Assembly (NCBI GenBank): GCA_963920765.1
Contig: OY987251.1
Coordinates: 2,048,501 to 2,112,500 of the forward strand
Direction of reading: 5' to 3'
Length of the DNA: 64,000 nucleotides
Origin: Ulota crispa
Taxonomy: Eukaryota > Streptophyta > Bryopsida > Orthotrichales > Orthotrichaceae
Part shown: positions 532 through 55,814 of the stretch, in pieces
Position numbering within the stretch: position 1 is the stretch's first letter
How the letters are laid out: each line of letters begins with the position of its first letter
Program-made: the position numbers and the translations under genes
Notes under the pieces: model-generated
The model's input: the letters and a program-made list of their open reading frames with translations, nothing else
What the model was told of the DNA's origin: nothing
Database searches by the model: none

Positions 532-600
532 AGCAACAATGCTAGCGTGCGAGCCTAGAGTGGCGAGCGTGAAATCCATGAGCAAGGAGCGTGAAACTTG
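532..600 (+). repeat. Left terminus of the giant Mutator-like element
   Basis: The terminus contains ATGCTAGCGTGCGAGC followed by GGCGAGCGTG, CATGAGC and GGAGCGTG. The GCTA-x-x-GTGxGAGC core also occurs at three other element ends in the window (17598 in complement, 54064, 59153 in complement). The repeated GAGC/GCGTG words are candidate transposase-binding sites; that role is inference. Confidence 0.7.
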
Positions 601-2051
601 GAATTATTGGGGGAAATTGATAACTTTCAGTTCATTTCATTTTATTTGCAAGGTAAAAGTGAAAATAGTTATCAAAAAAACATTTAGCACCTATGACCAT
701 GGAAATAGGGTTGAACCCAAGACCGTGGGATTGTCATGGAATTTCTAGAATGGGTTTTGGAGGTGGTGTACATGTAGGAGTTTTTCTAACAATAATTCAC
801 CTAGAATGTTAGAAATAGCAAAAACAAATATAAGGAACTAACCCATATATGATTTAGGGTGACCGGTTCAGGGTTGAGTGGAACAAACAGTTTAGGGCAT
901 TGGTTTACTACATTTCATCATTGCAGGGTCTAGGGTTTAGGGTCTAGAAAGGTTAATCCAATATATGTTTAACCACAATGGAATACAAATCATGAAATGG
1001 GTTCCAACATCAATGACATAAACATTGAAGCCAAAACATTGAACTAAAGTGAAGGTCAAGCAGTGCTAAATCAAGTAAAGGATAAGGATAACCAATTAGG
1101 GTTTAGGAAATACAAAAGATAATAGTAGTGGGAGAAGGATTATTCAAGGTAACAAACTTGAGCAGGTTCAAATTGCCATGTAGTACATAATGATAGAAAC
1201 TAAAGTGGTTTCCCACAAGCAATATTAAAAAAATGTAATGTCCCTGCACAGGGGGTTGTCAACAACACTGTAGAAAAAGATGATATAATATTTTGATAAA
1301 ATCTATACCTAATGAGTGGTATTGACATCACTAATAACCCACAAAATGCATTCAACTACTCTTGCAGCTTGATAACTCTAGTTTTAATAAGTAGCGTTTT
1401 GATTTTTGTGTAGCTAAAGCTAGGGCCATGTATGAACTTGTCATTGTGAAGGTCCATGCAACATAAGTATAAAAAAAAATAGTATAAGTGCTTGCAGTTC
1501 ACATATTGATGACGTCCTCCAATGGCAGAGATTGTCATGTTTACAAAATCAAGGCAATTGCAGGTTGGAAAACTTCCAATTGTCAGACGGTGCACACTTC
1601 TCTGTTGCTTTGGTCCTGTCTCAAGAGAAACAATTGCGCCCAATGCTGGCAAGGTAGTAGAGTGACCCCCAAAATCTTCCCTTTAACATTTGCAGCACTT
1701 TCTCACTTGTTTTTTTGCTCAAGAGTTGGCACTTTGGTGCCACGATAGATTGTGGAATTTTGCCTCTTTGTTGGGTATGAATCTAGATTAGGAGGGGCCT
1801 GAGTGTATAATGTGCACTCAAAATTAGATGAGACGCCAAATAGTTGACACAGAGATAATGCTGGCTTTTGTTGTAAACGGAAACTAGCATGTTGCAAGAG
1901 AATAGACTCTTCTTTGCTCAATTCTGTCCCTACTAAAATTGGCCAGATATCTGGAACTGTAGGCCAATCAATGACCTAACTTTGTTTAGAGCCTTTCACA
2001 CAACGGTGAATGTCATCAGCACAGCTAGAACTTCACAGTGCGAATGAAAAT
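601..2051. other. Non-coding left flank inside the giant element
   Basis: No convincing gene is seen here. Small open frames on both strands lack motifs and overlap one another. The stretch lies downstream of the transposase stop codon at 2052 and may hold its 3' untranslated region. A TTTAGGG-like string near 925-945 is too short to be a telomeric repeat. Confidence 0.5.
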
Positions 2052-5000
2052 CTAATTTGTTTCCATGATACAATAGAGCAGGAGTACCCTTTGAACCTCT
2101 TCCAACCTTGCAACACATTTGATATTTGAACCACACAATTGTGCGTGGCACTTAGCAGCTGACTTAAGCTTTAGCCTTGCAATGTGCCATTTGGAGGTAT
2201 CATAATCACTTTCATGTGGCATAGTTACATAGGTCTCCTCAAGAGCCTTCGGCAAGGAACTAGGTGCACCTTGGTTATTAGGCACTGCAGTAGTTGTCCT
2301 CCTCTTCACGCGTGGCTCAGAGAAATTAACCTTGTCCAAACAATGGGAGTCCTCCTCGTTACCAACAGGAGTGCCTGCTTTTCTCTTAGAACTACCAAAC
2401 ACCTCCTTACCCTCAAAGTGGAGAATGCGGGTTCCAATATTTTTTGCCCCTAGCAACGAGTTCAAAGCATCAACTATTATTTTTGGATCACCACTTTGCC
2501 TAGCAGCCCTTACTCGTAGCTCATGTGTATTTGGACCAAAACCTGGGGCACTTCCATGCAAATATGCTCTAAAGTTTGTCATTTGCTGCCAAGCTTGTAT
2601 GCTGTCGTCACATGTGACTTTGGATAAATTCTTCCCACAGTTTCTTGGCATTTGCAACCATTTGTTGTGCACGATCTTTGACAAATTGCAAGTGGGCATA
2701 TCCGCCAATTCATCTAAGTTCAAGTTCTGCACAGCAAAGAACATCCAATGCAAAGATATACTTAGCAAATGCAACGTAAATAGATATTCCCACAAGGCCA
2801 TGACTAACACTTCATTTCAGAAAATGTTAAGCATGAAAGAGAGAATGGTCTCAATTGCTGGGACCATAACTTCAAAACAAAGAGCACAGAGACAAGTCAT
2901 CCAATGGATGGTTGCTTCCAATAGTCCACGATGGATATATAATTAACTAATAATGACTCTCTCATGAAAATTAATTCAAAGGAACACACTATTGGAACTG
3001 CCAAAATTGAATGTGAAATTCATGTGTATTTTTAAGTTTTTTTCAAACTTGAATAGTTAGGCGTCATTTTCATTAAAAAGGGAAAAAAAAGTGCAATCAT
3101 GGTGACCCCTCGGAGCACATTTGTCCACAAATGAGCTTTGGGGGGACATTATGACTGCACGTTTTTTTCCTTTTTTTTTGAAAATGACACCTAACTATTC
3201 CTTGCAATGGAGATTCAAGGGTTATTATTTGGAATGTAACAAATTCAAAGTAATGATCTAAATGTATTGTTGTGATAAAGATGTGCATGTAGTTTTTCTC
3301 TTCAAAACTAATAATTTTAAGAAATTAACTTGCTGCAGGGAACTACTACCCCTATGCATGTTTCAGTGGCATATGGAATAAAATAACAACAGGAGGTTTA
3401 GACATAAGTCCATTCCCAAAAAATTATAATATTATTGACCACATAGAGAGCGCTTCTAACTTTACGAGAGAAACCAAAAAATATCTTGAAAAAACATAAT
3501 GAACTATGCGGATTATACTCGGACCCAGAGCACATTTGTGAACGAATGTGGTCCTAGAGGTTTACCAAGCCGTGGACATTGCAAAACTTTCTATGATGAC
3601 TAAGATGTGAGTTTCAAAAATTGTTGACTTAAATTTTAATAGCAATACACATAACAAACAGCAGCAAGATGGAATGTGTTGGAGACAACGTCAGTGCTGA
3701 TTTGAGTACCAAAAAAGTCTTACAATACACATTGCTTTTATTGAAATGAACTACTTTCACACATGATATATATTTCAATATAGATAGAAAGGAAATTGAC
3801 ATGTAGCAATAATGCTTCAATAATTTAGTAAGGTTTACATACCATTTGCATTGGGCCACCCCATTGCCAATACCGAAAGTGCCAAAAGGCTAGCCAATGA
3901 CTTAGATGACACAATGCGTCTTCATTAGCAGCTCCAAATGATAACCACCAAGATCGAATAGCTAAATACCTGGTCTCAGCAATCTTAATAGTAGCAAAGT
4001 CCTTTTATTGCGTGCAAAGTTGCTTGTGTTGATTCCAAAAGGCCTCTTTAATATATTTTTTGGTATGTTTCACCATTGACGTGGTTTAGTAGACTAAACA
4101 AGTCCTTTCCTTGTTTGGCATGACTTCATCACGTTTCCTAGAGTCAAAAACAATTTGCAAAGCCTTCCAGTTTGACATTGCACTGTCAGCCATAAATCCT
4201 TTCAAGTTTGGATTGTCCACGCTAAATCTACTCATTATAGTAATAAGGGATCTCCAAAATTGCACTTGAATTTTTGTATTCTCTAACTGCATATCACAAA
4301 TGGCAATTGTCATCACCTTCTTATATCCTGAGTCATACACATGGCACGCCATAGTGGTCTAGTCTTCAAGTCATTTCACATGATCAAACATCATCTAAGA
4401 CAATTGCAAGTCCCCACCTATCTGCATCCTTCTAACTAAATCAACTCCACTCCTAGGTCCGCCTGTCAACATTTTAAAGAGATATACTTTCTCTTTACCT
4501 TGTCCAAAGAAAACATTGTCATGGATGAATTCAAATATGGCTAGTCTCTTCATGGTCATGATGTTATCAATGACCCCTCCCTTGTTATTTGATCGTAATC
4601 CGGATATGACATTGCAATATTTGGATTGCTTAAGTACTGAAACTTATTTGTGATTTTGTTTCTACCAGTATCGTCTAGCATTCTCTTCTCACCCTCTCCA
4701 CTATGGTATAAGTGATTAGCTAGGAATTTCTCTCCAGCTGCCAAAGCAATAGCAAAGTTTGTTGCTTTGGGAGTTCTAGCTACTTTTGCTGCAATAAGAT
4801 TATGAGTTTCATTTGCCAAGTCTCTAAACAATCCTTTTGCAACAGGGTGATTGTGATTTCCTAAATGAATAGTTGCCCTGCTCATGTTGCTCATGTTGCT
4901 ATATATATAATAAATTCTAGAGTCGCACAACTCAACACAGATGCGGACTTGCTTGAAAACCTTGTAAACCACTGTACTCTCCTTTGGTGGATCAGTAGAA

Positions 5001-5375
5001 ATTGCAAAAGCAAATGTAGTACTACCACTCCACTCCATTTCATTACAACAATTTGCCCTCACTAAGTAATCACAATCTAGGTTTTGACAAGTCAAATGCC
5101 CTACACAACCCGCTTTACAAAACTTGAGCTTATTCTCATTGTGAATATTGGTAGTAACCAATTTACACCAAAAAAGACCATTGTATTGTTTATCCATACC
5201 TTTCAAGTTCTTGGCTGCAGAAGCACAAGCACTAGATCAACTAGGTGGTAGTTCAAAGATGACATTGCCATCAAACAACAAAGGGAGGTACTGCATGCAA
5301 CGGTGCAAAATAGTAGAATAGTTCAACTGTGATAGCTCGCTCCTGCTAAGTTGCATGCTTCCTAATTCTTTCAAT
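2052..5375 (-). pseudogene. Mutator-like (MULE) transposase pseudogene
   Basis: Reading the minus strand from about 5375 to 3846 gives one almost continuous frame. First comes a Cys/His-rich N-terminal region (CKAGC, CQNLDC, then HLGNHNHP) resembling GCM1/FLYWCH-type zinc fingers fused to MULE transposases. Then comes a MULE DDE-type core with VMTIAICDMQ (about 4290-4320) and GFMADSAMSNWKALQIVF (about 4150-4205), ending in WLAFWHFRYWQWGG. A GTATGT donor follows at about 3846, and a last exon from an acceptor at 2727-2729 runs to 2052, starting with NLDELADMPTCNLSKIVHNKWL. In-frame stops occur near 5235 (TGA), in a cluster near 4350-4400, at 4086 (TAG) and near 4015. The middle, 2730-3845, looks intronic. 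It is divergent from the methyltransferase-like gene in the same element. The protein would cut and join the element's ends in the nucleus; this copy cannot. Confidence 0.8.
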
Positions 5376-5388
5376 TAATGTAAAATAC

Positions 5389-6099
5389 TCAATTCACCAA
5401 CAGCTTGTGGATACACAGGAAGACGTGAACTATTTGACCTTTCTTCACAAGCAAATAGATTGGGTTGTCCATTGGGCAATTGTGACATACCAACAGTACC
5501 CGAGACTTGTGGGGAAGAAAAGGATGAACTTTGTCACAAACATCTCTTTTAACTATGTCGCCATCTGATTCACTAGACAATTCTAAGATGGAACAAAGTT
5601 TCTCCACTTTCACAACCTGCAGAAGGAATGCTGAAGGTACAACATCATCATTGAGAGGAACAACAATAGCAATAGGGGAAATTGGAAGGCAAGGCATATC
5701 TACACTAGAACCACTAGAATTCAGCTGTGGCTTTCAATTACTATAAGAGGAGTTTGCTGAAGGGAGGCCGTAAACACAAAATGATCCACAAAACAAGTTC
5801 TAGTAGTCACCAGCATCATCTATTGACTTTGTAACAAGGTTGCACTGTAACAACTCACCACTTTTTGATCTACTCTCCTCTTCAACATAAACTAAATCCT
5901 CAATGAAACAAAAACAAACATGAAGAAGATGATTCAAAACCTTAGCTCTGCCATGACAATCCAAAGGAACAATCAAAGGAACCTTGTTTCCATTAGCACA
6001 AATAGAGGCCATGGTGCCAAAGAAACTAACTACCTGATCATTACAGAATAGAAACACAATTCTTGGACAACACAAAGATGGGCATCTAGCACTTAACAA
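5389..6099 (-). other. Possible N-terminal exons of the transposase pseudogene
   Basis: Two minus-strand frames (5389-5697 and 5800-6099) lie just upstream of the recognisable transposase. One contains an acidic stretch around VEKLCSILELSSESDGD; the other contains several cysteines. They fit the place of 5' exons, but I see no diagnostic motif, so the assignment rests on position and strand only. Confidence 0.35.
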
Positions 6100-7974
6100 G
6101 GAAGCATGGTTTAACGGGCCTTGGGTATAAGATTAGGGACACACAGACGCAAAAGGAGAACCATCCACATTATTCAATGGGTTTGCCAACCACATGAATG
6201 CTTCTGCCTGTAAATCTATTGGGAACATAGATATTCTATAGCCTAGGTACCTAGTAATTCATAAGATTTTGTAGATTGTGACGATAAAGCTGAAGTTGTG
6301 GTTAGTGGATGTTAATGCATATTTGACTAACAGATAAGATAGTATTTTTGCTAGATATAAAATTTGCCAGTGACACCATCACCATAGAAACAAGCTATAT
6401 AATAACAAAGTGGCAGTACTAACGGCTTCTTTGACAAGTGTCAAAAGATCCAGCTGCAACATTTTAAAAGAAATTGTACTTGATAGCAAAGGTGGTGTTC
6501 AAATGAAGGCAGCATATATTTTGTGTACATTAAACCATTCAAAATGAATACTCTAATAGGGTTTGAGCTTTGGAAATTGACACACCTAATTAAGCATTAA
6601 ATGAATGTGTAAGCCACAAATATAATTGTCAAGTATGCCGCCGCTATACACAAAGAAGTTCCACCAAACTTAGGCGGAAAATTAACAAAGAGCAACTGCA
6701 TAAAGATTGCAATCTGATAGTAAGGGGCAGATATTGATACTTTGAATATTGTCCACAAATCTATATAATATAGGGATGCTTATGTTCTCTTGATTTTGTA
6801 CAGCTATATGGCCAGCACACTTGTCCAATTATATTGTAGTAAGGAACTTCCAAAACTTACATAGCATTCACATAGAAAGCCAAGGATGAATTCTTCCTAA
6901 GATCCCATCAAAAAACAACTTTATCATTCCAAGAGAAAGGACAAATCTCATTGCTATAATTTCATTCAAATGAAAAAGCCTCTTTTGTGGATTTGTAGTG
7001 AGTTCCAAATGTCTTGCACTTCACAACACATAAGGCAGCAACCAAGGACAATTTTGTGGTTGTATTGAGGGGAAGAAAAGTTGATCATAGAGGGCGGGGG
7101 CAAGGTGATCCAAGTTTGTAGTTTTTGCAAAGGATGAAGAGGTGCACAAAACTTTTGTCCGAGCTTTTGGAAAAGTGCAACAAAGTACAGAGAGTATTGT
7201 CATTTGAGGAAAACATAGCAATGGACGATATGGACATTTGTATTGCAATAGTACAAGGCTTTGGCACTACATTGAGCAAAGGGTGCTCCTCCTTAGTGTC
7301 AAGTGCTGGTGAAACTTTACATCAGGTTAGACCCTTTTGATGTTTGATTGCTTCATGTCTAAAGAAAGTCAGTCATATCTTGCCGTTTAGTCTAGTGTAG
7401 CATCTCATCAAATAACTCAATCCAATAATCCATTGTTGAAAATGTTGCACTTCATTATATAAAGGGGATGGTAGAATGCTGCACTATTATTTACGTGGAC
7501 TGATGAATTTAGAAATATTTGATTATGCTATAGTTTCACAGAAATAAATTACATAGACTGTGTGGAGTAATTAATAAATTTGGTATAAAATTAACTTCAT
7601 ACATAGTTGCATTTGAGGTTCAATATCTAAGTAGACCGTACAAGACACTATATTATTCATGAATAATTACTACTTGATTATAAACTCTTTTTTCAAGCAC
7701 ATATGAAGTATCCAAAGCAAAATAGAGTAACATAACAAAGAATTAAATGATTTCATGTTTCATAGCAAATAATTTATTAGCGGTATGAACTTCATTAATT
7801 CGGAAACACAATGGCTACATAAAAGAAGTCATTTGACCTTACATAATAGAAGGTAACAACATAAAGTATAAACAATGCTACTAACCATTATTTGTGATTG
7901 CCCTTAACATTAGAATTTAATTAAAGCAACCAAGATCCCTAGCCAACAGTGATCAATATCTGTAGGAGATCCTA
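6100..7974. other. Divergent intergenic region between transposase and methyltransferase-like genes
   Basis: This is the shared upstream region of two divergent genes. A 71-codon plus-strand frame at 7125-7340 has no recognisable domain. AT content rises from about 7380 to 7970. Promoters for both genes should lie here, but I cannot single out a convincing TATA box because the region is uniformly AT-rich. Confidence 0.45.
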
Positions 7975-8636
7975 TGAGTGCACAGCCATAGGCTTTAGGG
8001 TTCCTCCTTGACGTTTGCATTCTCCTCCGCTGTTTCCGCAGCTGCTACACTAGCTCCCTCTGTGTTCAGCGGTCCCTTTCTGTTTTGCGTTTGCAGAAAC
8101 CTTATCGTCACTGCGCCTTTCCGGCTGACAAACGGCGCGTCTGTTCTGTGTAAGTATCCTTGTTAAGCTGCATGTGTCACAATTTGCTGTACTTGTGTTA
8201 CTTGGATTTCAACTTTGTGTACGCAGGCATCATAGTTGCCGACTCCGTTTGGGTAAATTCTCTAGTCGCTGCGGTTTTAGGGTTTAGGGATTGTCTTAGA
8301 TCTTCCTCCATCTCTCTGAAGTTACAATTTTGCGTAAGCTCCAAGCAGGTAGAGATTGATTTAGACCAATGTATGTACACTCGCAGGGATGAATTTTAGT
8401 CAAAATTGGGGTTTCTATAGGAGGGTTGCAAACTAGACCTTGATGTACTTCAAAGCATTTCACTGCCACATCAAAATTGCTTCTTTAGAAAACCTCAAAC
8501 AACTTTGTACCTTACTGTCTCTATCACCGCGATCTTGTAGAACGTGTAGATCTCAAAGGAACTCCTCATTTTTGTGCATTCAAAAAGTGACTTTACCTTA
8601 GGTTTGTTGATTTAGAGGGAGCAGTTGCCCGCTGAC
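7975..8636 (+). promoter_or_regulatory. Probable 5' leader of the ParB-methyltransferase-like gene
   Basis: Base composition shifts to clearly higher GC at about 7990-8150, with pyrimidine-rich, leader-like sequence ending in a GTAAGT donor at 8150. An acceptor (TACGCAG) precedes 8228, and a telo-box-like TTTTAGGGTTTAGGG lies near 8276-8290, a word often found near plant transcription starts. The first good in-frame start, in GACATGACC, is at 8637. The start and leader exons are inferred from composition and splice signals only. Confidence 0.45.
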
Positions 8637-9400
8637 ATGACCACTATCCAAGGGCAACGGAGGTATGCTTTGCAAGAGTCCAAGTCAAAGGGGGAGCATT
8701 GTTCACACGCACCAAACATAGCAAAGACGTCCTCCTAGGATGCTGTAAGTAGAGCTTAGAAATCTATGCTTTCAAAACACTAATCCACTTTATTGAGAAC
8801 CTATGACGGGAAGCATTTACATGTGCTAGCAATTCAACCTTGAAGATGTTTGACCAAATCCTAAGCCTCGATTCCTAAACCAATGAGACGGACCTGCCAA
8901 AACCTAATTATGCTACAACCTTAGCTTGTTGGTGAAATGGAATGAATGACGCCCAACACCTAAGTTTATGTGATCATGACTTTCTGTGGTACACCAGATT
9001 ACATACAAATACAAATATTTTGCAACGATAAAACAATAGAATCTGGAGTACTACAAATGAAATGCCTATGATTACTATTAGTATTAAATTGTTCTATGCA
9101 GAGACGACTCCCAATTCCAGCGGCGAGTGTCAAGAGGTTGCTACTCCCACAAACTTTTGAGGACAAGGAGATGCCTACAGTGCAAAGCACGTTTCCAAAG
9201 AGTCACAGCATTCACTTGCCTCCAGCACATCCTAAGGATGAGGACCTTGAAGAAATAGAGGAGGTGAGCCATACTAGGATTCAATTTTTGCCGTCCACTG
9301 CAATCTTTGCACTTAGAACAAATTACGCAAAAGGATGCCTTCATAATTCTTTGCTTGAAATTGTAATATTTCTACAACCCATCTTCAAAACTGTTTGTAG

Positions 9401-10068
9401 CCTCAGACTCCTCAATTGCCCATAAGGATGAGACAGCTAGAAATCGAAGGCACCAATATTCCAGGGACAAATTAGCAGGTAGAAATTGGGGATGATGAAG
9501 ATGTTTTGAGCCCAATAGATGCTGAACCTGATGAAGAGGTAGAGAAATTACTCAAGAGCAACCTCCGCCAATTGCAGAAGGTGGATGATGTGAAAAGCAT
9601 CGCTGGTTTGCGGAAGAAACCCAAGTTGCTCTTCCGCCTTTGTATTCCTCTAATTAGGCTGGTACCAATACCAGTGGTTAGGTCGACATTGTCTTGTGAC
9701 CTTACTAAGTTAGAGTATGAGTTTGTCCATGGCTATTGCAATGGGGCTGCGGTGTTCTATTTGTCGGTAATAAACAAAGAGGGCAACTCCTCAGACTTCT
9801 CAGCAAAGGAAATGGCATCATGGGGGTCACTTTGGCAGGTGAAGAATTCAGCGTTTGTGAAATCCCTTGGAGTGCATCAAGAGCTACAGTTTCTAAGATG
9901 TGCAAAATTGTATGTTTGCAATGGTAACCACAGAAGGCTGGAGTGGATTAATTATATAGAAACGCAACACCCACTAGACCCGAGCTGGCACTTATCTGTG
10001 GGCTCCTTTGTTCTAGAGACTAAAGGGCGCACTGAGATTGTCATGCAAATAATGCACAACATGAACAA
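9401..10068 (+). other. ParB/sulfiredoxin-like domain exon
   Basis: The exon starts after a TTTGTAG or, alternatively, after a CAG at 9476-9478, which would skip the TAG at 9473. It ends before GTAAGT at 10069. The frame reads an acidic start, LTKLEYEFVHGY-NGAAVFY, then KLYVCNGNHRRLEWINYI and SFVLETKGRTEIVMQIMHNMN. The hydrophobic strand followed by C/DGNHR and a helix matches the ParB-like nuclease/DNA-binding signature (DGxHR). The next exon continues with a HVKTNMVHTL helix. The ParB call rests mainly on this one motif and the fusion context. Confidence 0.55.
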
Positions 10069-10516
10069 GTAAGTACTTCAAGTTTGCCTATCATGCAGCT
10101 TCTGATCATACATTCTAAATGCCAACTATAGTTAGTGACACCAGAGAGCATGAACTTACCGCAACATCTATATTTTTGGTATCCAAGCATACCAAAGACT
10201 CGCATGTCAAAACAAATATGGTACACACATTATGCCATGTCCAGAAATACGGCCTTCTCCCCTTAGAAAAATTCAAGGATTTGCTTTGCCCAAGCAAACT
10301 CAAGAAGTGCAAGCAGACATCTACAAAGAAGACCTAGTATACTACATTGGCTGAAATACTTTCAAGCTTCATATTCCGGGTGAGTCATTTTGGACATCAA
10401 ATACAATACCCTTGTGATTGAGTTGTAATTGACATTGTGTAGCTTTGAAGATTTGCATGATACATGGACCCGCGCACTTTCTCTGGATATTGATTGAGGT
10501 CATTTGTGCGTTTAGG

Positions 10517-11160
10517 TGCGGGTGCTTGCACGCTTGCGAGTACCCTCACCGGCAAGGATGCTCACAGGCACACAAGCACCCGCGCTCCTTACTCTACATA
10601 ATAGCAACTTCTGTTGAAGGTGTTGCGGGTGCTTGCGCGCCCATGAGTGTCCTTGCCAACGATGACGCTTGTGGGCTTGCAAGCACCCGCGCTCTTTGCA
10701 AAAATGAGCTTGGGTGCTTGTGCGCCCGTGAGCATCCACGCCAGCAAGGGTACTTGCGGGCGCGCAAGCACCCGCACTCCTTGGATGAAAAAAGCGCGGG
10801 TGCATGCGCGCTCGCGAGCGTCCTTGCCGACAAGGGTACTCACGGGCGCGCAAGCACCCGCGCTCTTTGCAAGAATTGAGCGCGAGTGCTTGCGCTCCCA
10901 CGAGCATCCTTGCCGGCAAGGGTACTTGCGAGCAAGGGTACTTGCAAGCGCACAAGCATCTGTGCTCCTTGGATGAAAAAAGCACTGGTGCTTGCACACC
11001 CACAAGTGTCCTTGCCGACAAGGACGCTCGCGGGTGCTTGCGCTCCCGCGCTCCCTACTTTGCAGAATAGCAACTTTTGTTGAAGGGGCCGAGGGTGCTT
11101 GTGCGCTCGTGAGCACCCTCGTCGGCAAGGGTGCTTGTGGACACGCAAGCACCTGCACTT
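10517..11160. repeat. GC-rich array of about seven imperfect palindromic repeats
   Basis: About seven units of 70-100 bp start near 10517, 10623, 10710, 10797, 10882, 10983 and 11090. Each is itself an imperfect hairpin: arms of the type GCGGGTGCTTGCGCGCC and GGCGCGCAAGCACCCGC around a CCTTGCCGGCAAGG centre. Units are separated by three spacer types in the order A-B-C-B-C-A: A contains ATAGCAACTT-TGTTGAAGG, B contains TTTGCAA--TGAGC, C contains TTGGATGAAAAAAGC. The array is GC- and CpG-rich in otherwise AT-rich DNA and lies in an intron of the methyltransferase-like gene. Open frames across it on all strands are composition artefacts. Confidence 0.85.
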
Positions 11161-13603
11161 GTCTATATCATTGCATCATCTTTGATTGCTCTCGGGCATG
11201 GTCTCACAAGTGTTATGATTGGCTACATTTTCTATTTGCTTGTATGTTTCTCATTTATGCAATTGTTGTTCATGAAGTGTGATGTTCTATGGTCCGTTAG
11301 TCTGCTGCTAGGGAATTTATGGGTATTTCTTGGTGTCTTTCCCGAATTGGTATTTTTGGCATTGGATAGTTTTCAGTTCTGAGGGATTGCACTGGAGGGC
11401 TCCATTTTATTTTTATCCCTACTGGCAATTTTTAGTGGGACCCTACCTAATTGTTTTTCATTGTTGTCATGTAATCCGCTAGCGTTGGAATGTTTGGCAT
11501 CATTGTTGACCTGAGGGTGGATGTTGTGTGGAATTTCTTGGGGAAAGTTGTCCAATTTTACTGTTGGCTTTGTTGACAAGGAGGTCTTGTATATTTGTAT
11601 TGCAGCAAGAGATATCGGCAGCTGCAGATCTGGCTTTGCGTATTTATAAGGAGAGTATGCCTATGGAAGATAGATCCACGAAAGCAATTGCTGATGTTAT
11701 GCGGGCTGGTGCCAATGAGAAGGACCGCATGCAGATTCAAAGGATGGTGAAACCTATTGCTGCCACAAATCCTTCCAACGGCAAGGAGTTTTTACTTGAG
11801 GTATTATATCTGACCCCAAAGTTTGATCTTTGTCAGATACCTCATGCACTAGCTTATTTTTTTTACATTGTTCTATTTTCTAGGTTGAGAAGCACTACAA
11901 CGCAAATGAAGTCCCTGAAATGACATTGGACAAACTTTAGATTGTGGCTAGTTGTGCTACCACAGCTCATCATAAGACTAAATTTTTGAAGTGGTGGAAC
12001 TCAAGCATGCCTTCAAGAGAATCTAGGTAGTTTCATCCAAAACTAGTTGGTGATGACCCTTTGAAAGGGTTCCTTGGGAAATGCATCTAGTATGCGGGGG
12101 TACATGTTGGAATTTCTATTTGAATCATTTGTCTTGATTTATATTCTCATTTCTTACATTTAAAGTTTTGGCACGTGTATTGAATTTGTTTGTGGTATGT
12201 TTTGCCAGGTATTCATTGTAATATATTTCCATGGTTTTTTTACCTTTACAAATTGAAGATGCTGCTGTGAGCTTTTTCGATAATGTTGTGAAGAAAGATA
12301 ATCTTTGAATAGATATGACTGTAGCACTTGAACCAGAAACTCTTCCCAAGTATATTGAGGGTAGAGACGCAAAATCTAGGACCATGCCTATTTGGGTGTT
12401 TTGAGAGGAGCAAAAAATTTCAAAAGGGGGGACAATTTCAGCAACATCACAAGTTCTAAGCAAGTTGTATAGAGGGTCTTATTCCGGTAGATTAAGTTTT
12501 CTCTCTCATTTTTTATCTATTTGTTTTGTCGCTATGTTTGGTTCTATGTCATTTGATTTAGGGAATGTCCCCTTTAAATCACATTTTGAGTGTTGGTTGC
12601 ATTCCTATGTGTACTGTAATTGTGGGGCTTAATTAATGTTGTCTTTGCAAAGCACCATAACTTTTCATGAAAATTGGCATTGAGAATCTTGGTGAGGTCA
12701 TTGTGATAAATAGCCGGTCCTCCAACTTTGATGTTTGTTACTATTTTTGGGTGTTTTAGATACTTCAAGCTTGAACTGGTTATGAAGAAGGCGCTTTCTT
12801 GCAATTCCCTGCTGCCATTTCTCTCCACCTGGCTTAATTGTAGCTCACCTGAATTCATGTTCGCTGCTACCCAAGTTAGCCTTTTCACCACCGCTGAGTT
12901 GGACAGTTGCAGTTGGTTCTTGAATTGTAGTATAGAGTTTACGCACCCTTTTGAGGTAGCTCTTCGAAAGTCACTAGAAGGGGTAGGAGCTATTGATGTG
13001 GAGATTCTTGAGTTTGCCGGATTGAGTGAGGAGGAGAAGGCCATAGCCATAGAGAAGCGCGCAGCTGCAGATACCAAGAAAATAGACAAGGTGAAAATTA
13101 TAGTGGCGGCTAAGGCTACCAAGGAGGTGGAGAAGAGGAAGAAGATCAAAGAGCGTGCTGCGGAGAAGAATAAGGGTTCAAAAGGCAAAGCAAAGGTTGC
13201 AAAGGTTGTGCCCGCTATAACTACGGTCCCAAAATCCTAAACCCCTAGTTCTCAAATGCAAACTTGCTCTCAACAAGCTCTTAAGAGAAAGAGCACCGTC
13301 ATTGAACTCACAAATGAGGAGGACATCATCTTCCAAGGCTCATAGGTTGTTTCCACTAATGCTATTGTCGATGCGAGCGTGCATGAGATGATTTTGAATG
13401 TTTCTATGAGTGGTGTGGTGGAGAATATGGAGCTTGTTGGTTCTAACAACTACACTGAGATCACGGACTTCCTTAGGAAGATGTGTATGTACTTCATGCT
13501 TCCTAAACCCTTGTGACTATGACTACAATTATGATCTTATTTTTTTAATTGTAATGAATTACACTCTCTAGCTAACATAAAATGTTTCATCTGTCATTGG
13601 CAG

Positions 13604-14633
13604 GCTGCTGGCAACAAAGGGCGGTGCATAGCAAGACAGGTGGATGAAGATGCTGTTGTTGACCTAGTCCTGGTGGATTGCCCTGAGAATCTTATGGTGC
13701 CAATGATCTCCACTTCTACAACGGACATTCCTACTTGGAATTTGGACTTAATAAATGACCTGATGAATGCAGTGTTTGCTTTTGCCAAAAAGCATTTGCA
13801 TGATGATGGGGCCATCATCATTGTGCACTCTTTCAGCGTAGCCTCCAAGTCACGTATTGCAAGACTGTGTAATATGTATGCTATGCAAGTGAGGAGGGAG
13901 TGGCAGGCAACAAACTGTCTTTAGTTGGCATTAGCCATTGACCCTCCCAAGACAGTGAGTTAAATTATTTCTAAACTTACCCATTAAGATTTTGGTTCAA
14001 CCGCATTAGTTGTTTGATTTTATTCTAAAGAAATCTGTGTTTGATTGCAGACCTAGAAATTTGTGGCTACATTGTTAGTCAAAAAGCTTGGGAAGGGCAA
14101 GCAATCAAGCTTTGCATTTTAGTACACCGAGGCCTTGGAGAGCTTGGGTACTGACGTTGGGATGGATGATATGCTCCTCAATCTCATTGGGATCAATGAT
14201 TTGGCAAAACATGGCTCCATCACCTTGGAGAGGACTGTGAAAGAAGGATGCTTGATTTTATCAGCTGCTCATTGAAGCTTGCTCAGGTTATGAAGACGTG
14301 ATTGTCAATTGTACAGCATCTACAGGATAGTACTTAATGCACTCATCTCTGTTGTTATTCAGTCACTATGTTAGTATGATACTCAAGTTGATGGTAATTG
14401 TTTCATTTTCCAAGAGGGTCTATTGCTGCTTGCCGTGCTAGTGGTTGTAGTCTACTTGCTCTAGAGGCTGACAAAGTTATATTTGAGGCTATCCTCCGCC
14501 CAATGATCTAGCTTCCACGTGCTGCACCTGTTGCAATTGACCTAGAAATTTTGCCAGAGACAACAATGTCAGAGGATCCAAATACAACTGTCATAGTTCC
14601 TATGCAGTTTGTTTGCAAGACTAAACCTAGTAA
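13604..14633 (+). other. Beta-class DNA methyltransferase-like domain (three exons)
   Basis: The first exon (13604-13954) holds DLVLVDCPENL, equivalent to motif IV (usually DPPY), then FAKKHLHDDGAIIIVHSFS, resembling the strand after the catalytic loop in amino-methyltransferases. The second (14051-14327) ends with LIEACSGYEDVIVNCTASTG, aligning with motif X and the start of motif I. The third (14415-14633) continues GSIAACRASGCSLLALEADK, the AdoMet-binding glycine loop and acidic strand end. The order IV-X-I defines the beta class in the bacterial/phage nomenclature. Stops at 13922, 14054, 14120 and 14509, with frame changes, break it. Confidence 0.68.
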
Positions 14634-14726
14634 GTAAGTTTTTTTTGTAACCTCTACTCTTATTGAACATTCATTCCAATTGAGTGTTTACTAACAAATC
14701 TTCTTGTGTTTGTTGTGTTTGTGCAG

Positions 14727-14994
14727 CAAAGAAGAAATGAAGCAAAGGAAGAAATCTAGAGGCAAGACTATGTGTGATGATTGGGTTAGCCCAGACAAGA
14801 CCTTCTTCTATCCATCTTATGCTATGCAAGTAGGAGATGCTTTTGCAAAATTTGGTACAAAGAAGCCTACTTTGAGAGCTCCTAATTATTCAAATGATTT
14901 TTTAGAGTTCATGGATGTGATGGCAACTAAAGGAGGCAGTGTTTCTTTGGACCATATTTCTTTTGACTCTCCTGGTGATTCTAGTATGACCTAA
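14727..14994 (+). other. Intact C-terminal exon of the ParB-methyltransferase-like gene
   Basis: After a GTGTTTGTGCAG acceptor the frame starts with a lysine-rich stretch (KEEMKQRKKSRGK), continues with DDWVSPDKTFFYPSYAMQ and ends at a TAA at 14992-14994 after FDSPGDSSMT. It has no internal stop, unlike upstream exons. No domain is recognised. The basic start may aid DNA binding or nuclear import, which is inference. Confidence 0.55.
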
Positions 14995-15342
14995 TATTTT
15001 GGATTTTTTTAGAAGTTCAATTGGGTTATCTCTCTATCAGAATTTTTACATTCTATGGAGTACAGTCTGTCATTATTTTATTATATGAGCACATTCTGTT
15101 ATTGCTCTACTCTTGTCTATATCTTGGTTTCTTTGAAGACCACTTTTAGGTATGGATGCATGTTTATATTGTGATTTGTTTTATGATACCTCCATTCCCT
15201 TAATCTTTTGATAATCATTATACATCATTACTCATTTCTGTAATCACTTGATTCCCACGGTCATAGGCATTACTCACCAATGTAATTTCCCTAATTGCAC
15301 AGTTATGGGTTCCCATGTATTCTTTCAAGGGATAAAGTTCCC
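14995..15342. other. 3' flank of the methyltransferase-like gene
   Basis: AT-rich DNA between the gene's stop codon and the terminal repeat array. It probably holds the 3' untranslated region and polyadenylation area. No gene is seen. Confidence 0.4.
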
Positions 15343-15454
15343 GCTCACAAGCTCACAGGCTCACAAGCTCATAGGCTCACAGGCTCACAGGCTCACAAGC
15401 TCATAGGCTCACAGGCTCACAGGCTCATAGGCTCACAAGCTCACAAGCTCACAA
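15343..15454. repeat. 8-bp tandem array (GCTCACAR) at the right end of the giant element
   Basis: Fourteen consecutive 8-bp units, GCTCACAA, GCTCACAG or GCTCATAG, partly follow a four-unit order (AA, TAG, AG, AG). The array continues, less regularly, as GCTCTTGCTCACAAGCTTGCTTGCTAGC up to the element end. In complement each unit reads YTGTGAGC, the same word found near the ends of the related elements at 17598, 54064 and 59153. Confidence 0.9.
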
Positions 15455-15488
15455 GCTCTTGCTCACAAGCTTGCTTGCTAGCAACCCT

Positions 15489-15497
15489 ATGCCATAA
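15489..15497. repeat. Right copy of 9-bp target-site duplication ATGCCATAA
   Basis: Identical to 523-531. It separates the last bases of the giant element (GCTAGCAACCCT) from the resumed TTAA-family sequence (GGCCATCAAATTTGCATA). Confidence 0.92.
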
Positions 15498-17599: not shown

Positions 17600-20230
17600 T
17601 GAGTCAGTCTACTATTAGTAGAATCAAAAAGGAAATCTTCAAAAATGTATTTATGAAGCCTATTGGACGTATGTTTGCAAAGTGTAGGACCTGCGACCAG
17701 CTTTGATAACAGTTCCTTCCAAAAACTCCAAAAAGGAGTCCCGAGTACGTGGAGTTCATGAAGCAACGTAATGAACATTCAAATCACCAAGCTTCACGTC
17801 GTTGGCTGTATGCGTCTTGGCATAAAGATTCCAAACAGAATCCACAAGAAATTCTTAGTAATATTCACAACAAGATGGATACAACCAAACAGCTCTTCCA
17901 AAAATGGGAATCATAGCAAAATCAAGGCAAGGTCTTGGGCAGCTTCTGATGAGCGCAATTGGAGTGGTAGCTTATGGTCACAATGATAGTGCATACACTC
18001 ATTATGCTCCTTTGTGTTGGCCAAGAGACTCAAACTTTTTTGTTTCTTTGTTAGTTAGATTATTTCATCAACCAAAGGGTTGTCAAATACAAGAAACTAG
18101 TGATCTCTTTCCATATCTGCCGGCAAATACAATATTTGAGGCATATCTCAAAGGAAAGTCTAGGTGTATGGAGAGTTTGAATTTAATTGACAAGGGAGCC
18201 CGCATAGGATCCGCACCATTGCCTAGAAGTCTATATCTGCAACTTGATAATTGTGCAACAAATAATCAAAACCAATATTTGATGGCATTTGTATCCCTTC
18301 TGACTGCTTGAGGTATCTTTAAAGAAATTCAAGTTGGATTTCTGCTAGTCGGACATACTCATGAAGACATCAATGTTTATTTCAGTCATCTCTTTAAAGC
18401 CTTGAAGAGCAACAATATTTTTGTAGTTGCTGATTTGATGAAAGCCTTTGAACATGTAATTGCAAAAGTTATCATTAATGCCACAGATTATACAAGAAGT
18501 TGGAGACTTCAAGTTGTTTGTGAAAGATTACCAAAGTATCAGCTTTGCTAGGTTAATTAGGTTGGCTGAAACACACTTGGGTACTTGCAAAAATGACTTC
18601 TCTCTTTTGTCTCAAACACCCTTAGTATTGGTAGTATTGATAGTACTATTGAGCTTCTGGAATAATTTTTTTAAATAAAATAAAATATGAAAAATTTGTA
18701 AAGCATTTAAAATAGCATACCTATGAAAATTTAGACCTAGAAAAATTTTATTCTAAAAGTTATGCGCAAAACAAAATCACCTTAAAAAGCCAATTTCTTT
18801 CTTGCTTTTTAGAAAATAGTAAATTAATTCAAAAAATAATAATAAAAATTTGGCATTTGAGAATCCATTAAACACATTCACATGGTACAATTGCTTTGCT
18901 GAGGAATTTCTTTGTATTTTGCCAATGAAGGGAGATAGGATGTCCACTTTGAGACAATGTAGATGCCATGGAATTTATAATTTTGCAAAACCCTTCTAGA
19001 AATGCATGTATGCATGTTCCATAAACAACATCCTTGATTTATAGCCCTAGAAAAGATTCTTTGGACCCAAAATAGTACTAAAAACCCCCCAAAATGGCTA
19101 AGGTAGACACCCATTTGGAGGCTGCTTAAAAATAGCAAAATAATTTCAAAAAACACCAAAAAATCATTGAACATCAGTAACTTGCATGTTCACATTACTC
19201 TAAAAAGACAAGTCAATATGACTTCTTTTGCAAAAGTTACAAGCAAAAATCAAGCCGCACAAGGTGAGGGGGACAGAATGTAGTACATGTCATTCTTGCA
19301 ATCACTCACTTGTTCCAATTCTACGTAAACAATGAGGGGTGGTGGATATGAGGTATAAGAAGTCTGCAGCTAATAAGCAGTGGCTACTAGCCGATAGAAC
19401 GCCTGCTTGCCTTTGGAAGCAAGATTGCATGAGCCAGCCTTTGCTCTTTCCATTGAGCCCAAAGCTTGGTCCATTTAATCCCATGTGGAGCAACAAAGTT
19501 TTGAAGGCGACAAGGAACCAAAAGAAGGCAAGGGAAATGGCTCAAAAAGTTACCCTGAATACAAATTTTATGTTATTAGGACTAGAAAAGCACACACAAT
19601 ACTTGTCAAAATGCAAAGGATTTGCAACTGCATTTGCTCTATATGTTGAATATTGGAATTGAGTGTTGCACAAGCTTCAAGAGCCATTGCCTGACTGTCC
19701 TTTGGAATAGGTGGAAGGCTTCAAGCTTAAACACAATTGGAGCTAGCACCTGACTACATGTCTTGCCCAAGGGCCAAGGTTAATTCCAAGGATGTCATTC
19801 CAGAAGTAGAGGTGTTGGAACTTTATTGTGACCTTGCAAATGAAGCGCCACAAGAAAGCTTCAATCCATGGCTTGATGTACTACCTAGCTCAAGGGTTTT
19901 TTCTAGACTTGAGGACCCCGTGGTTTGTGCACATTGGCTAAGAAGAATGCTCTCCACTATCTGCAAAATGGAGGGAAATGTGAATTACAAGAAGTTCCTT
20001 CTTCAATACTAGAAACAAGATAACTCCAAAACTAATCTTCAAATAAAGTACCGTTACTGCTGGTACAAAAAATGGATTGTTGAAATTAGTGTCCACTCTT
20101 TGATTGATGCAACTTGTGTAGTATATTCCAATTGGTTTAAGATCGTGGATCCAAAATCTAAATCAATTCCTAAGAGATGCTGTGATTTTGTGTTAGTCAA
20201 TTTGAATAGGTTCAATGAGGTTGACTCTTG
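17600..20230 (+). pseudogene. DUF7869-type transposase-like pseudogene
   Basis: Plus-strand frames give SPEYVEFMKQRNEHS, then MSAIGVVAYGHND, LFPYLPANTIFEAYLKGKSR, LYLQLDNCATNNQNQY and, after a TGA at 18309, FLLVGHTHEDINVYFSHLFKAL and MPQIIQEVGDFKLFVKDY. This is the D-x-N/GHTHED pattern of DUF7869 proteins, thought to be transposase-derived. After about 640 bp the frame resumes with HLFQFYVNNEGW (about 19305), RYKKSAANKQWL and FNPMWSNKVLKATRNQKKAREMA; other frames carry VIPEVEVLELYCDLANEAP and HWLRRML. Several stops and frameshifts are present. A Mutator-like terminus abuts its 5' side at 17598, so the start is probably lost. The domain name is from memory of the family pattern. Confidence 0.65.
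18680..19300. other. AT-rich insertion or intron in the DUF7869-type pseudogene
   Basis: The coding similarity stops near AETHLG at about 18580 and resumes at HLFQFYVNNEGW near 19300. The interval has no coding frame. It could be an intron or an inserted AT-rich fragment; I see no clear terminal repeats or target duplication. Confidence 0.4.
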
Positions 20231-53185: not shown

Positions 53186-54060
53186 TCATACGGCTCCGTA
53201 TTTGTTCCGGATAAAGATTCTGGCACATATCGTTTAATCCGAGAGCCGTTCACTTTGGTATCTAACCACAACCCTTCAAGGTCTTGGAGCTAAAGGAAAC
53301 CATTAGGGAAGATATAAACCACTTTACAAGGCCCCATCCATCTGGTGTGTAACTTATCAAGGAAATCTTCATGACGGTTGTCATAAAACAAAACAAATCC
53401 TCCTTCTTCTATTCCTGAACTCTTGGGTATTTTTGCATCAAAATTTTCCTTCCTCTGTCCTTGAATTACAGTAGTTTGCTCCAATGCATCTCCACGAGCT
53501 TCCTCCAGATCCTCAATTGCCAGTAACCGGAACTTCATCTTTGGATCAGGAATACTACTATTGGTTGCCATAACTTGGAGAGTCTCTACCTCCATCTCGA
53601 TTTTGTTTAATGCTTCTTGTCCAAATACTAGAAAGAATGGAGTCTTCTCGGTAGTATTCTTCTCTAATGTGTTGTAGGCATGGATTGCTAAAGGTAGTTT
53701 TTGATCCTAATCAATCTTGTGAGCTGAAGCCATCTTGTTTAAGACTTTCCCAAAAATCCCGTTGGCTCTCTTAGTTGATCCATTGGCCATTGGGTTATAA
53801 GGAGTTGTCTTCTGGTGCTTAATTAGGTAGGTAGAGGTGATGTTACTTATAATATCATTAGAAAAATGAATCCCTCTATCACTCACCAACTCTAATGGGT
53901 GTCCATATTGCATCATGATCTGTTCAAACAGGAAACCGGTAGCTGTGGGAGCATCATTTCTCCTTGTGGCTCTAGTCTCCACCCACTTGGTGGCATAATC
54001 CGTGGCCAGGATAATATTTTTCCGGGCACTGGCCAAATTAATAAGCTCAAAAAAATCTAA
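53186..54060 (-). pseudogene. Ty3/gypsy retrotransposon integrase fragment
   Basis: The minus strand reads LDFFELINLASARKNIILAT, then DYATKWVETRATRRNDAPTA, HPLELVSDRGIHFSND and TTPYNPMANGSTKRANGIFG: the D, D and E positions of an integrase core, with the usual AN(G)xxERANG region altered to STKRANG. After a TAG at about 53707 it continues LPLAIHAYNTLEKNTTEKTP, then RKENFDAKIPKSSGIEEGGF and LHTRWMGPCKVVYIFPNG, a gypsy-type C-terminal domain, and a TAG at 53291 before LQDLEGLWLDTKVNGSRIKR. The zinc-binding N-terminus, reverse transcriptase and protease are missing. The coding sequence ends abruptly at 54061, where a Mutator-like terminus starts. Confidence 0.88.
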
Positions 54061-54061
54061 T

Positions 54062-54115
54062 GATGCTAGAGTGTGAGCAGGGAGCAATAAGCGTTGAGCG
54101 TTGAGCAGTGTGCAG
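54062..54115 (+). repeat. Left terminal repeat of the 5.1-kb Mutator-like element
   Basis: GATGCTAGAGTGTGAGCAGG followed by GAGCAATAAGC, GTTGAGC twice and AGTGTGC. It aligns base for base with the complement of the end at 59153 at most of about 50 positions. Confidence 0.75.
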
Positions 54116-55185
54116 TTGGATTTGAGTAGTGAAAATTCATGTCTTACTAAAAATAACATATTTCAGAGCATTATTAAGTGAATTTGGGCCAAAAATAGTA
54201 GTGGATAAATTATTAAAATGGAAAGATTATTAAATAAAATTGGAAGAAGAGAGCTTTCATGAACTCATCCAATGTTCAAATAAGGTCACTAAAGGTAGAA
54301 ATGGTAGAAACTATACTTTATGCACATGAAAGAAACTTTGAACCACATGAAAAATAAATTTCAATCATTCATGATAAAAAACATTCATCCAATCATCCAT
54401 CCAAGTATCATCTAAGTACCATCCAATGAATGAGATTCTGACGCAAATTTTGGATACAAAATGAATAGGCGTGCAAAAATATGAAATTAAGATAACCTCT
54501 TCAGCTTCCAAAGAGACTTCAAGCTATGATATACTAATGTTTACAAATTCACTTGCACACTACAAACTTCCTCTTCAGAACCAATAAGATCTCACATAAG
54601 CTACCATGTGAATTGTCGACGGCTAAACAACTAGATGTATATGCAGATTTTTGAATTTTAGGTGGCCTTTATGGATTTTGAAAAGGCTGCAGGCTATGAA
54701 AAACTCACATTTACAAATTTGTTGGCACATATTATACCCCCTCTTTGGTTCCAAAGAGGTATCAAGGGAGTTGCCATGAGATTTTTCAAAAACTAAAAAG
54801 TTGAATTAGTAAATATATATATATGATACAATGACAACCTCCACAAACTCAAAGGAAGCTTTAACCATAACAAACTCATGCTTTCAAATTCCGGTCCTCC
54901 ATTTTAAAATCTAGTAGGTCACAAAAAGACAAAATTGCAATTTGTAAAAAACAAAAATTAAACTAACAACCTTAAGAACAATGCATACGAAGCCTCCTAA
55001 GAATCCCAAAGAAGCTTGGGCCTACAAGATAAGTTTGTTTGACTAAGAATATGGTCAATTGATTACTCCAAATGTGCTTTTGGTATTCCTTGACAAAAAC
55101 AATGATACAGAGCAATAACTATAACTACTTATGCACATTAAAAATACAAATTGAAAAACAATATTGATTTGCAACAATTAGTGCT

Positions 55186-55221
<36 letters not shown>

Positions 55222-55814
55222 TATTATGTATTTTAATTTTATGATGTGACTATGCAGTCAAGGCTCCTTTGCAATCTAAATTGAGAAATCTAATATAGTG
55301 AATTTTTTTGGTCTCTTATTGCAATCTAATACAATTCCGTATCATGCAAAACACTAATTCACTCTATATACAATTATGACTAATTATCCCAATGAACAAT
55401 ACTCCTTAATTGTCACTTCCTTAAATCTCTTAAACCTTGCATAAACAAGGACAATTTAGCACCATAGAAATCATGGTTCATTTAAAAAACTCTCTATAGT
55501 ATTTTTGGCAATTCTATATGAACAATTTGAAATGCTAGATTAAACTTTGAGCCTTCTACTTTAGGTGGCTTTTACGACTCATTTCTAAACAACAAAATAG
55601 TATCCTAGAACTCTACTACACGTTAGATTGATTCCTAGTTCCACTAAGCTAAGTTTTCACAAGCTAAAGAATTCACACAATAAAGGCAACTTGGAACCTA
55701 GACAGAGTTCTAACCATTATTGTCAATGTTGTAACTTTCTAAAACACTCGAAGTTTATAATGTTCACCTTAAAGTTTCCAAGTTCAATAAATGTCAAAGA
55801 AGCCAAGCTTGACC
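54116..55814. other. Interior of the Mutator-like element, no gene seen
   Basis: AT-rich sequence with a (TA)n microsatellite at 55191-55218. The phrase TTGGC-CATTATA with TGGTTCCAAAGAG near 54720-54750 and similar words near 54570 hint at old duplications. No coding region is supported. Confidence 0.4.

Follow-up and report, generated by a model that had tools for sequence, protein, structure and literature searches.

A decayed terminal-inverted-repeat transposon of the moss Ulota crispa with a selected, noncanonical methyltransferase-like accessory gene

The analysed stretch of Ulota crispa DNA (assembly GCA_963920765.1, contig OY987251.1, positions 2,048,501 to 2,112,500; 64,000 bp in total, hereafter the window, C10:2048501-2112500 in our contig numbering) contains a transposon of ca. 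15 kb at window positions 532-15488, with short terminal inverted repeats (TIRs) and two divergent genes. One gene is transposase-like, and the other encodes an accessory protein with a probably ParB-like N-terminal segment and a C-terminal domain which, judged by profile comparisons, is homologous to beta-class DNA amino-methyltransferases. The accessory gene is an integral, long-maintained gene of the transposon family and not captured cargo. With moderate confidence, we read the whole as a decayed TIR transposon with a selected accessory gene of noncanonical methyltransferase fold, whose product would act as a self-recognition factor for its own element.

Copy number and gene linkage

Searches of the genome (274.8 Mb, 157 contigs) resulted in at least 117 ParB-like, 107 methyltransferase-like and 104 transposase-like loci after merging, these being lower bounds, as some matches were omitted from the linkage input: about 30 ParB-like ones (those to a second fragment of the same copy, and the weakest), about 30 partial methyltransferase-like ones (query positions ca. 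46-106, mostly frames near 55 amino acids with stop codons), and about 20 transposase-like ones (second fragments and the weakest). A transposase-like open reading frame (ORF) was located upstream and on the opposite strand at 86 of the 117 ParB-like loci, when shuffled transposase positions gave a mean of 0.61 and a maximum of 3 in 200 rounds. At 80 loci, the methyltransferase exon followed in the same orientation at a downstream distance of no more than 20 kb, and both neighbours were present at 68, with four wrongly placed neighbour pairs in total. Viewed in reverse, a ParB-like partner was present for 79/107 methyltransferase-like and 85/104 transposase-like loci, and the linkage extends over subfamilies that are ca. 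33% identical in the ParB-like exon. On the basis of these counts, the accessory gene is a standard part of the element family and not an occasional passenger. The earlier note on this sequence had described the gene as transposon cargo; its residence in a transposon stands, while the 86/117 linkage marks it as an integral gene instead of a captured one.

At four compact loci (C5:8400621-8402660, C2:6135883-6137917, C1:23589177-23591117 and C1:34334201-34336238), a methyltransferase-like exon is situated ca. 1.5 kb from an opposite-strand transposase-like piece. These relatives are perhaps short derivatives.

Ends and repeats of the element

The ends of the element are real, as demonstrated by the TIRs, the 9-bp target-site duplication, and the existence of another copy on contig C3. 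The TIRs start with AGCAACAATGCTAGC and AGGGTTGCTAGC, respectively, and a short inverted repeat (AG...TGCTAGC) is common to both ends. The left TIR region (532-554, + strand, AGCAACAATGCTAGCGTGCGAGC) coincides with the point where homology to the C3 copy begins (532-534), and the right one (15455-15488, - strand, reading inward AGGGTTGCTAGCAAGCAAGC...) forms an end common to the window copy and the loci L027 and L028. The element is flanked by an exact 9-bp duplication, ATGCCATAA, at 523-531 and 15489-15497, and homology between copies stops just before the latter. The C3 copy is the closest sibling, with homology that continues to window position 15486 and spans both genes, interrupted by an intronic repeat array (10547-11128) and, close to the right end, by an 8-bp array (15386-15430). 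It is flanked on both sides by GATTTGAGC, which fits a 9-bp target duplication, its exact left boundary being ambiguous owing to the approximately threefold repetition of that end. Duplications of 9 bp were accordingly present in both copies for which the two ends were compared.

A 13-bp motif, CCTATGACCRTGG, was identified as an inverted pair at the two element ends (CCTATGACCATGG at 690-702, + strand; CCTATGACCGTGG at 15255-15267, - strand), with no other match within one mismatch in the window, i.e. two occurrences against 0.07 expected. Its variant YCTATGACCRTGG followed the accessory gene on the 3′ side in 8 of the 10 copies with a located last exon, L024 and L036 having no exact match, and was also found in L015, which belongs to a subfamily ca. 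37% identical in the ParB-like exon. In total, the variant was present in nine distinct copies, from 11 of 111 loci of which two were duplicates, and the subterminal motif recurs, with one mismatch, at the left end of the C3 copy. The right end of the window copy additionally includes a tandem array of 14.5 copies of the 8-bp unit GCTCACAG (15343-15458), and GTGAGC sites are present twice per right end in L027 and L028.

Two further repeats were observed. At L056 6325-6460, about three tandem repeats of the C3 copy's left end are present, each of them with the flanking GATTTGAGC. A GC-rich 86-bp tandem array (window 10625-10930) lies within an accessory-gene intron and is nearly missing in the C3 sibling; it contains GAGC-type words that resemble the element ends.

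Structure of the accessory gene

When the sequence was read and compared with 20 loci of ten kb each from this genome, a single multi-exon gene was recognised on the + strand, its conserved exons having a fixed order. The ParB-like exon with the GNHR motif (9476-10068; 151 genome matches) is followed by an ORF with a conserved exon that lies between the ParB-like and methyltransferase-like domains (11510-11923; matches in 9 of the 20 loci) and by an ORF with another conserved exon and a Lys/Glu-rich linker (12710-13240; 16 of the 20 loci). The methyltransferase-like part comprises an exon with motif IV, here DCPE (13604-13954), an exon that extends up to motif X and the beginning of motif I and is frameshifted in the window (14051-14325), an exon with the remaining motif I region (14414-14633; SIAACRASGCSLLALE), and the last exon (14727-14994), ending in a stop codon at 14992-14994. 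This agrees with the multi-exon gene relic proposed in the earlier note, i.e. GNHR, charged linker, and methyltransferase segments in the order IV, X, I, up to the very position where the note ended the gene. Splice sites were at the same positions in diverged copies, e.g. a GT donor directly 3′ of the motif IV exon in 13/20 rows. The window copy is a relic: it has a stop codon in the motif IV exon and a frameshift ahead of motif X, and when compared by eye with sibling L027, it has lost one donor and one acceptor site.

Homology of the methyltransferase-like domain

Family alignments included 17 of 26 ParB-like, 13 of 22 methyltransferase-like, and 9 of 13 transposase-like sequences. A PDB search with the profile of 13 methyltransferase-like copies returned CcrM (E-value 4e-7), two DpnA entries (0.0012 each) and MboIIA (0.39), which are all adenine methyltransferases, as well as two unrelated proteins (0.35 and 1.5), thus six matches up to an E-value of 10. 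A PHROG DNA methyltransferase family was matched by 7 of the 13 members (best 2.8e-6), and PF01555 by 5 (best 0.0013). Informative Pfam results were obtained from the family alignments only, and for the methyltransferase part only; scans of single exons of the window copy produced nothing relevant for ParB, methyltransferase or transposase. Genome-wide, PF01555 gave seven weak matches, none above the cut-off (best E-value 0.217), and two of these were located 0.3 and 0.6 kb downstream of methyltransferase exons of the family. The matches L057 and L058, elsewhere in the genome, were set aside, as they resemble by eye a conserved cellular methyltransferase, which we take to be TRMT11-like.

For comparison, the methyltransferase halves of seven phage loci in which ParB is followed by methyltransferase were aligned (L053 has a stop codon in its ParB part). 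The hhalign score against these was reached by none of 150 column shuffles, either locally or globally, and the global alignment was collinear from motif IV to motif I with 12% identity, the program's own probability being only 50% (local) and 59% (global). The motif order IV, X, I is that of beta-class DNA amino-methyltransferases and of phage ParB-methyltransferase fusions. These comparisons bear out the beta-class likeness and the motif order that had been proposed from the window alone.

With tblastn, no significant match was found among those listed for phages (best E-value 0.07) or plasmids (0.04); of these listed matches, 13/15 in phages and 33/40 in plasmids fall on annotated DNA methyltransferases. 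The few searches made, an IMG/VR scan and tblastn against phages and plasmids, yielded no closely related prokaryotic or viral sequence.

The N-terminal segment

The best local profile match of the N-terminal segment to phage ParB places FICDGNHRxxA on IIAGHxRxxA over 11 columns. The score was reached by 9/150 shuffles with 13 ParB sequences and by 2/200 with 21, the profile having been enlarged after the weak first result. GNHR is present also in the phage ParB proteins L108 and L109. Because of the GNHR-type motif and the order of ParB followed by methyltransferase as in phage fusions, we regard the segment as probably ParB-like.

The alternative, that this domain is unrelated to ParB and GNHR occurs by chance, would leave the rest of the explanation unchanged. 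It gains from the shortness of the single 11-column match and from a global profile comparison in which 103/150 shuffles reached the score. Furthermore, no family member matched PF02195 and a genome-wide PF02195 search was empty, the PDB search with the ParB-like alignment returned four unrelated weak matches without any ParB, and in PHROG one of 17 members matched a ParB family (E-value 0.26) beside ten other weak families. An IMG/VR scan with the same alignment gave 35 pattern matches and no relative. Against chance stand the motif itself, as the best local match to the ParB profile, its occurrence in the two phage proteins, and the domain order, and we consider an unrelated origin rather unlikely. 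For the ParB label in the earlier note, the motif gave a weak local match, and Pfam, PDB and the global comparison did not support it; the Pfam profiles suggested there recovered the methyltransferase (PF01555) and not ParB (PF02195).

Catalytic motifs and selection

The DPPY of the phage proteins aligns on a family tetrapeptide that is mostly D(C/V/M/I)(P/L)(E/K/D). The fourth residue was E, K or D in all 40 copies read (26, 9 and 5, respectively) and aromatic in none, motif IV having been located by regular expression except in L088, L098 and L102, where it was placed by eye. The canonical form (D/N/S)PP(Y/F/W) is therefore absent from the copies read. Likewise, the phenylalanine of FxGxG is replaced by T, I, N or M in all 18 readable copies (of 22), so that motif I does not have its usual form in these. 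These noncanonical states are common to subfamilies ca. 25-30% identical, and therefore cannot be put down to a single decayed copy. A conserved (I/V)PxWN follows 14-18 residues after motif IV, with W in 21/22 rows and one row unreadable.

Ratios of nonsynonymous to synonymous substitution (dN/dS) were calculated by the Nei-Gojobori method for pairs with dS 0.05-1.6 and at least 80 shared codons. The methyltransferase exon had a median of 0.25 over 36 pairs from 11 copies. For the ParB-like exon the median was 0.35 (10 pairs drawn from 26 copies), and the transposase-like core gave 0.20 (6 pairs, 13 copies); the closest pairs had values of ca. 0.7-1.0. This is the pattern expected of genes that are selected while the elements are active and decay after insertion. 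The older pairs have been under purifying selection, and therefore the accessory protein was probably functional with its unusual motifs, and was probably maintained in this noncanonical form during diversification of the family.

The selection on the methyltransferase domain would also fit an enzyme with N6-adenine or N4-cytosine methyltransferase activity, by which it marks the DNA of its own element. CcrM is the closest solved relative, phage ParB-methyltransferase fusions have a like architecture, and self-marking has been suggested for algal proteins in the accessible part of PMC12477816. However, an aromatic residue is found at motif IV position 4 in 0/40 copies and the FxGxG phenylalanine in 0/18, which makes catalysis unlikely and an active marking enzyme improbable; some probability of catalysis is left by (I/V)PxWN, which could provide an aromatic residue. 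The DNA-marking role imagined in the earlier note is thereby disfavoured, the normally required residues being replaced in every copy read, and with the phenylalanine gone from all readable copies the family comes close to the loss of the S-adenosylmethionine (AdoMet)-binding motif that the note had named as evidence against its own proposal.

Passive Pack-MULE-like cargo, i.e. host or prokaryotic DNA that was captured and plays no part in transposition, would agree with the gene-capturing habit of such elements and with no copy being established as intact, but was rejected as very improbable in view of the linkage across divergent subfamilies and the low median dN/dS between copies (0.25-0.35).

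The transposase-like gene

The transposase-like gene is located on the - strand and is represented by four ORFs: an N-terminal ORF (4556-5236; 126 genome matches, linked to ParB-like loci), a broken core with GFMADSAxANW (4092-4619; 80% identical to an ORF in L056, three internal stop codons), a C-terminal part (2052-2816; similar ORF in L056), and a C-terminal ORF with a CxC...CxH, SWIM-like pattern (1356-1682). The conserved core of the family reads WTTMACHVYDS...GFMADSAxANW. The CxC...CxH pattern was seen by eye only, in the window and in L059, and no Pfam match to the SWIM zinc finger was obtained.

When compared with 12 canonical Mutator-like elements (MULEs) of the same genome, the local score was 17.4 against a shuffle maximum of 17.0 (0/80 reached it), whereas the global score was reached by 60/80 shuffles. 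The best local alignment covers GFMADSA, and the MULE region aligned with it is presumably that of the second catalytic D. None of the 54 canonical MULE matches was within 20 kb of a ParB-like locus (95 of the 117 loci tested). The target duplication of 9 bp in the window and C3 copies is within the range of Mutator (8-11 bp, usually 9 bp). With this duplication in support, the element is probably a divergent relative of Mutator. The Mutator-like assignment made earlier is hence favoured by the duplication, and finds no backing in Pfam or in the neighbourhood of canonical MULEs.

Other features of the window

Outside the element, ORFs resembling retrotransposon integrase were observed on the - strand (53290-54162), an ORF with QLDNCATNNQNQYLMAF on the + strand (17862-18311) resembles another transposon relic, and an inverted repeat at 55809-57645 has 436-bp arms, 93% complementary, with 965 bp between them. 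As for a virus or provirus, no viral-looking ORF was noticed among those read, and no search aimed at viruses was made.

Proposed role and comparison with known systems

In the reading that we favour, the accessory protein would act as a self-recognition factor. Its N-terminal and methyltransferase-like parts would bind element DNA, perhaps at the subterminal CCTATGACCRTGG or at GTGAGC repeats, and the methyltransferase-like fold would have been retained for binding of DNA, and perhaps of AdoMet. The bound protein might then help the element to escape silencing, or help to assemble the transposition complex, in a manner similar to VANC, binding being more likely than methylation.

Several points weigh against this reading. 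The transposase-like ORFs gave no relevant Pfam match, not even to PF10551 (MULE), and no intact accessory gene was established among the copies read. Two of the three domains contributed few dN/dS pairs (10 for the ParB-like and 6 for the transposase-like). The (I/V)PxWN sequence could substitute for the aromatic residue of motif IV, and the subterminal motif could instead be the transposase's own site. Besides the Pfam and PDB results for the N-terminal segment given above, a single-sequence AlphaFold prediction of it had a mean confidence score (pLDDT) of 31.7, i.e. a useless model, and no plasmid match among those listed began in residues 1-109 of the composite query, which are the ParB-like part.

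VANC of the Arabidopsis VANDAL transposons binds noncoding tandem-repeat regions of its own elements and removes silent marks, according to the accessible part of PMC10398659. VANC and the accessory gene are both extra genes encoded by transposons, and the Ulota element likewise has noncoding tandem arrays, the likeness being one of description. VANC is not known to have a methyltransferase domain. A VANC-like anti-silencing role may be envisaged by analogy. More specifically, a non-catalytic ParB-methyltransferase derivative might bind its own inverted subterminal sites and counter silencing, which would mean that the VANC strategy had been invented twice, from unrelated proteins; this we put forward as a possibility, tentatively.

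Sola transposons have a 4-bp target duplication, TTAA. In the part of PMC12477816 available, the accessory protein of Sola1-1_Ec32 from Ectocarpus is, likewise, ParB-like with an N4/N6 DNA methyltransferase, encoded opposite to the transposase in a large DNA transposon, but the element belongs to the Sola superfamily, in contrast to the 9-bp-duplication element of this study, and to a brown alga, and an active product is predicted, unlike the eroded motifs found here; the two are likened by description and not by sequence. Green and red algal transposon proteins are cited there as similar (Iyer, Abhiman and Aravind 2011; Petroll et al. 2025). The phage ParB-N6/N4 methyltransferase fusions (L046-L051) share with the moss family the N-terminal ParB, the C-terminal methyltransferase, the order IV-X-I and a collinear methyltransferase alignment, whereas they retain DPPY and a DPF motif I, have no introns, and are only ca. 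12% identical to the methyltransferase half of the family.

ParB-methyltransferase accessory genes in algal transposons are thus already known, as far as this source goes. Among the results listed by searches of the open-access literature, none was seen to describe this kind of gene for a moss or any other land plant, and the words moss, bryophyte and methyltransferase are absent from the accessible part of PMC6446971. New within the literature searched are the 9-bp-duplication host element, the copy number and the tight linkage, together with the evidence for selection, the subterminal motif, and the finding that every copy read has lost the catalytic signatures.

Reports of transposon ParB-methyltransferases come from individual algal genomes, and marking of the element's own DNA has been suggested as their function (PMC12477816). 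With the Ulota family, 117 loci of a single genome are added, and these belong to a type of element that differs from the algal cases. It indicates that a gene of the ParB-methyltransferase type can be kept by selection across divergent subfamilies, and can persist without catalytic signatures. The idea of self-methylation thereby becomes testable, recognition of DNA is indicated as the retained function, and the 13-bp inverted subterminal motif is a candidate binding site.

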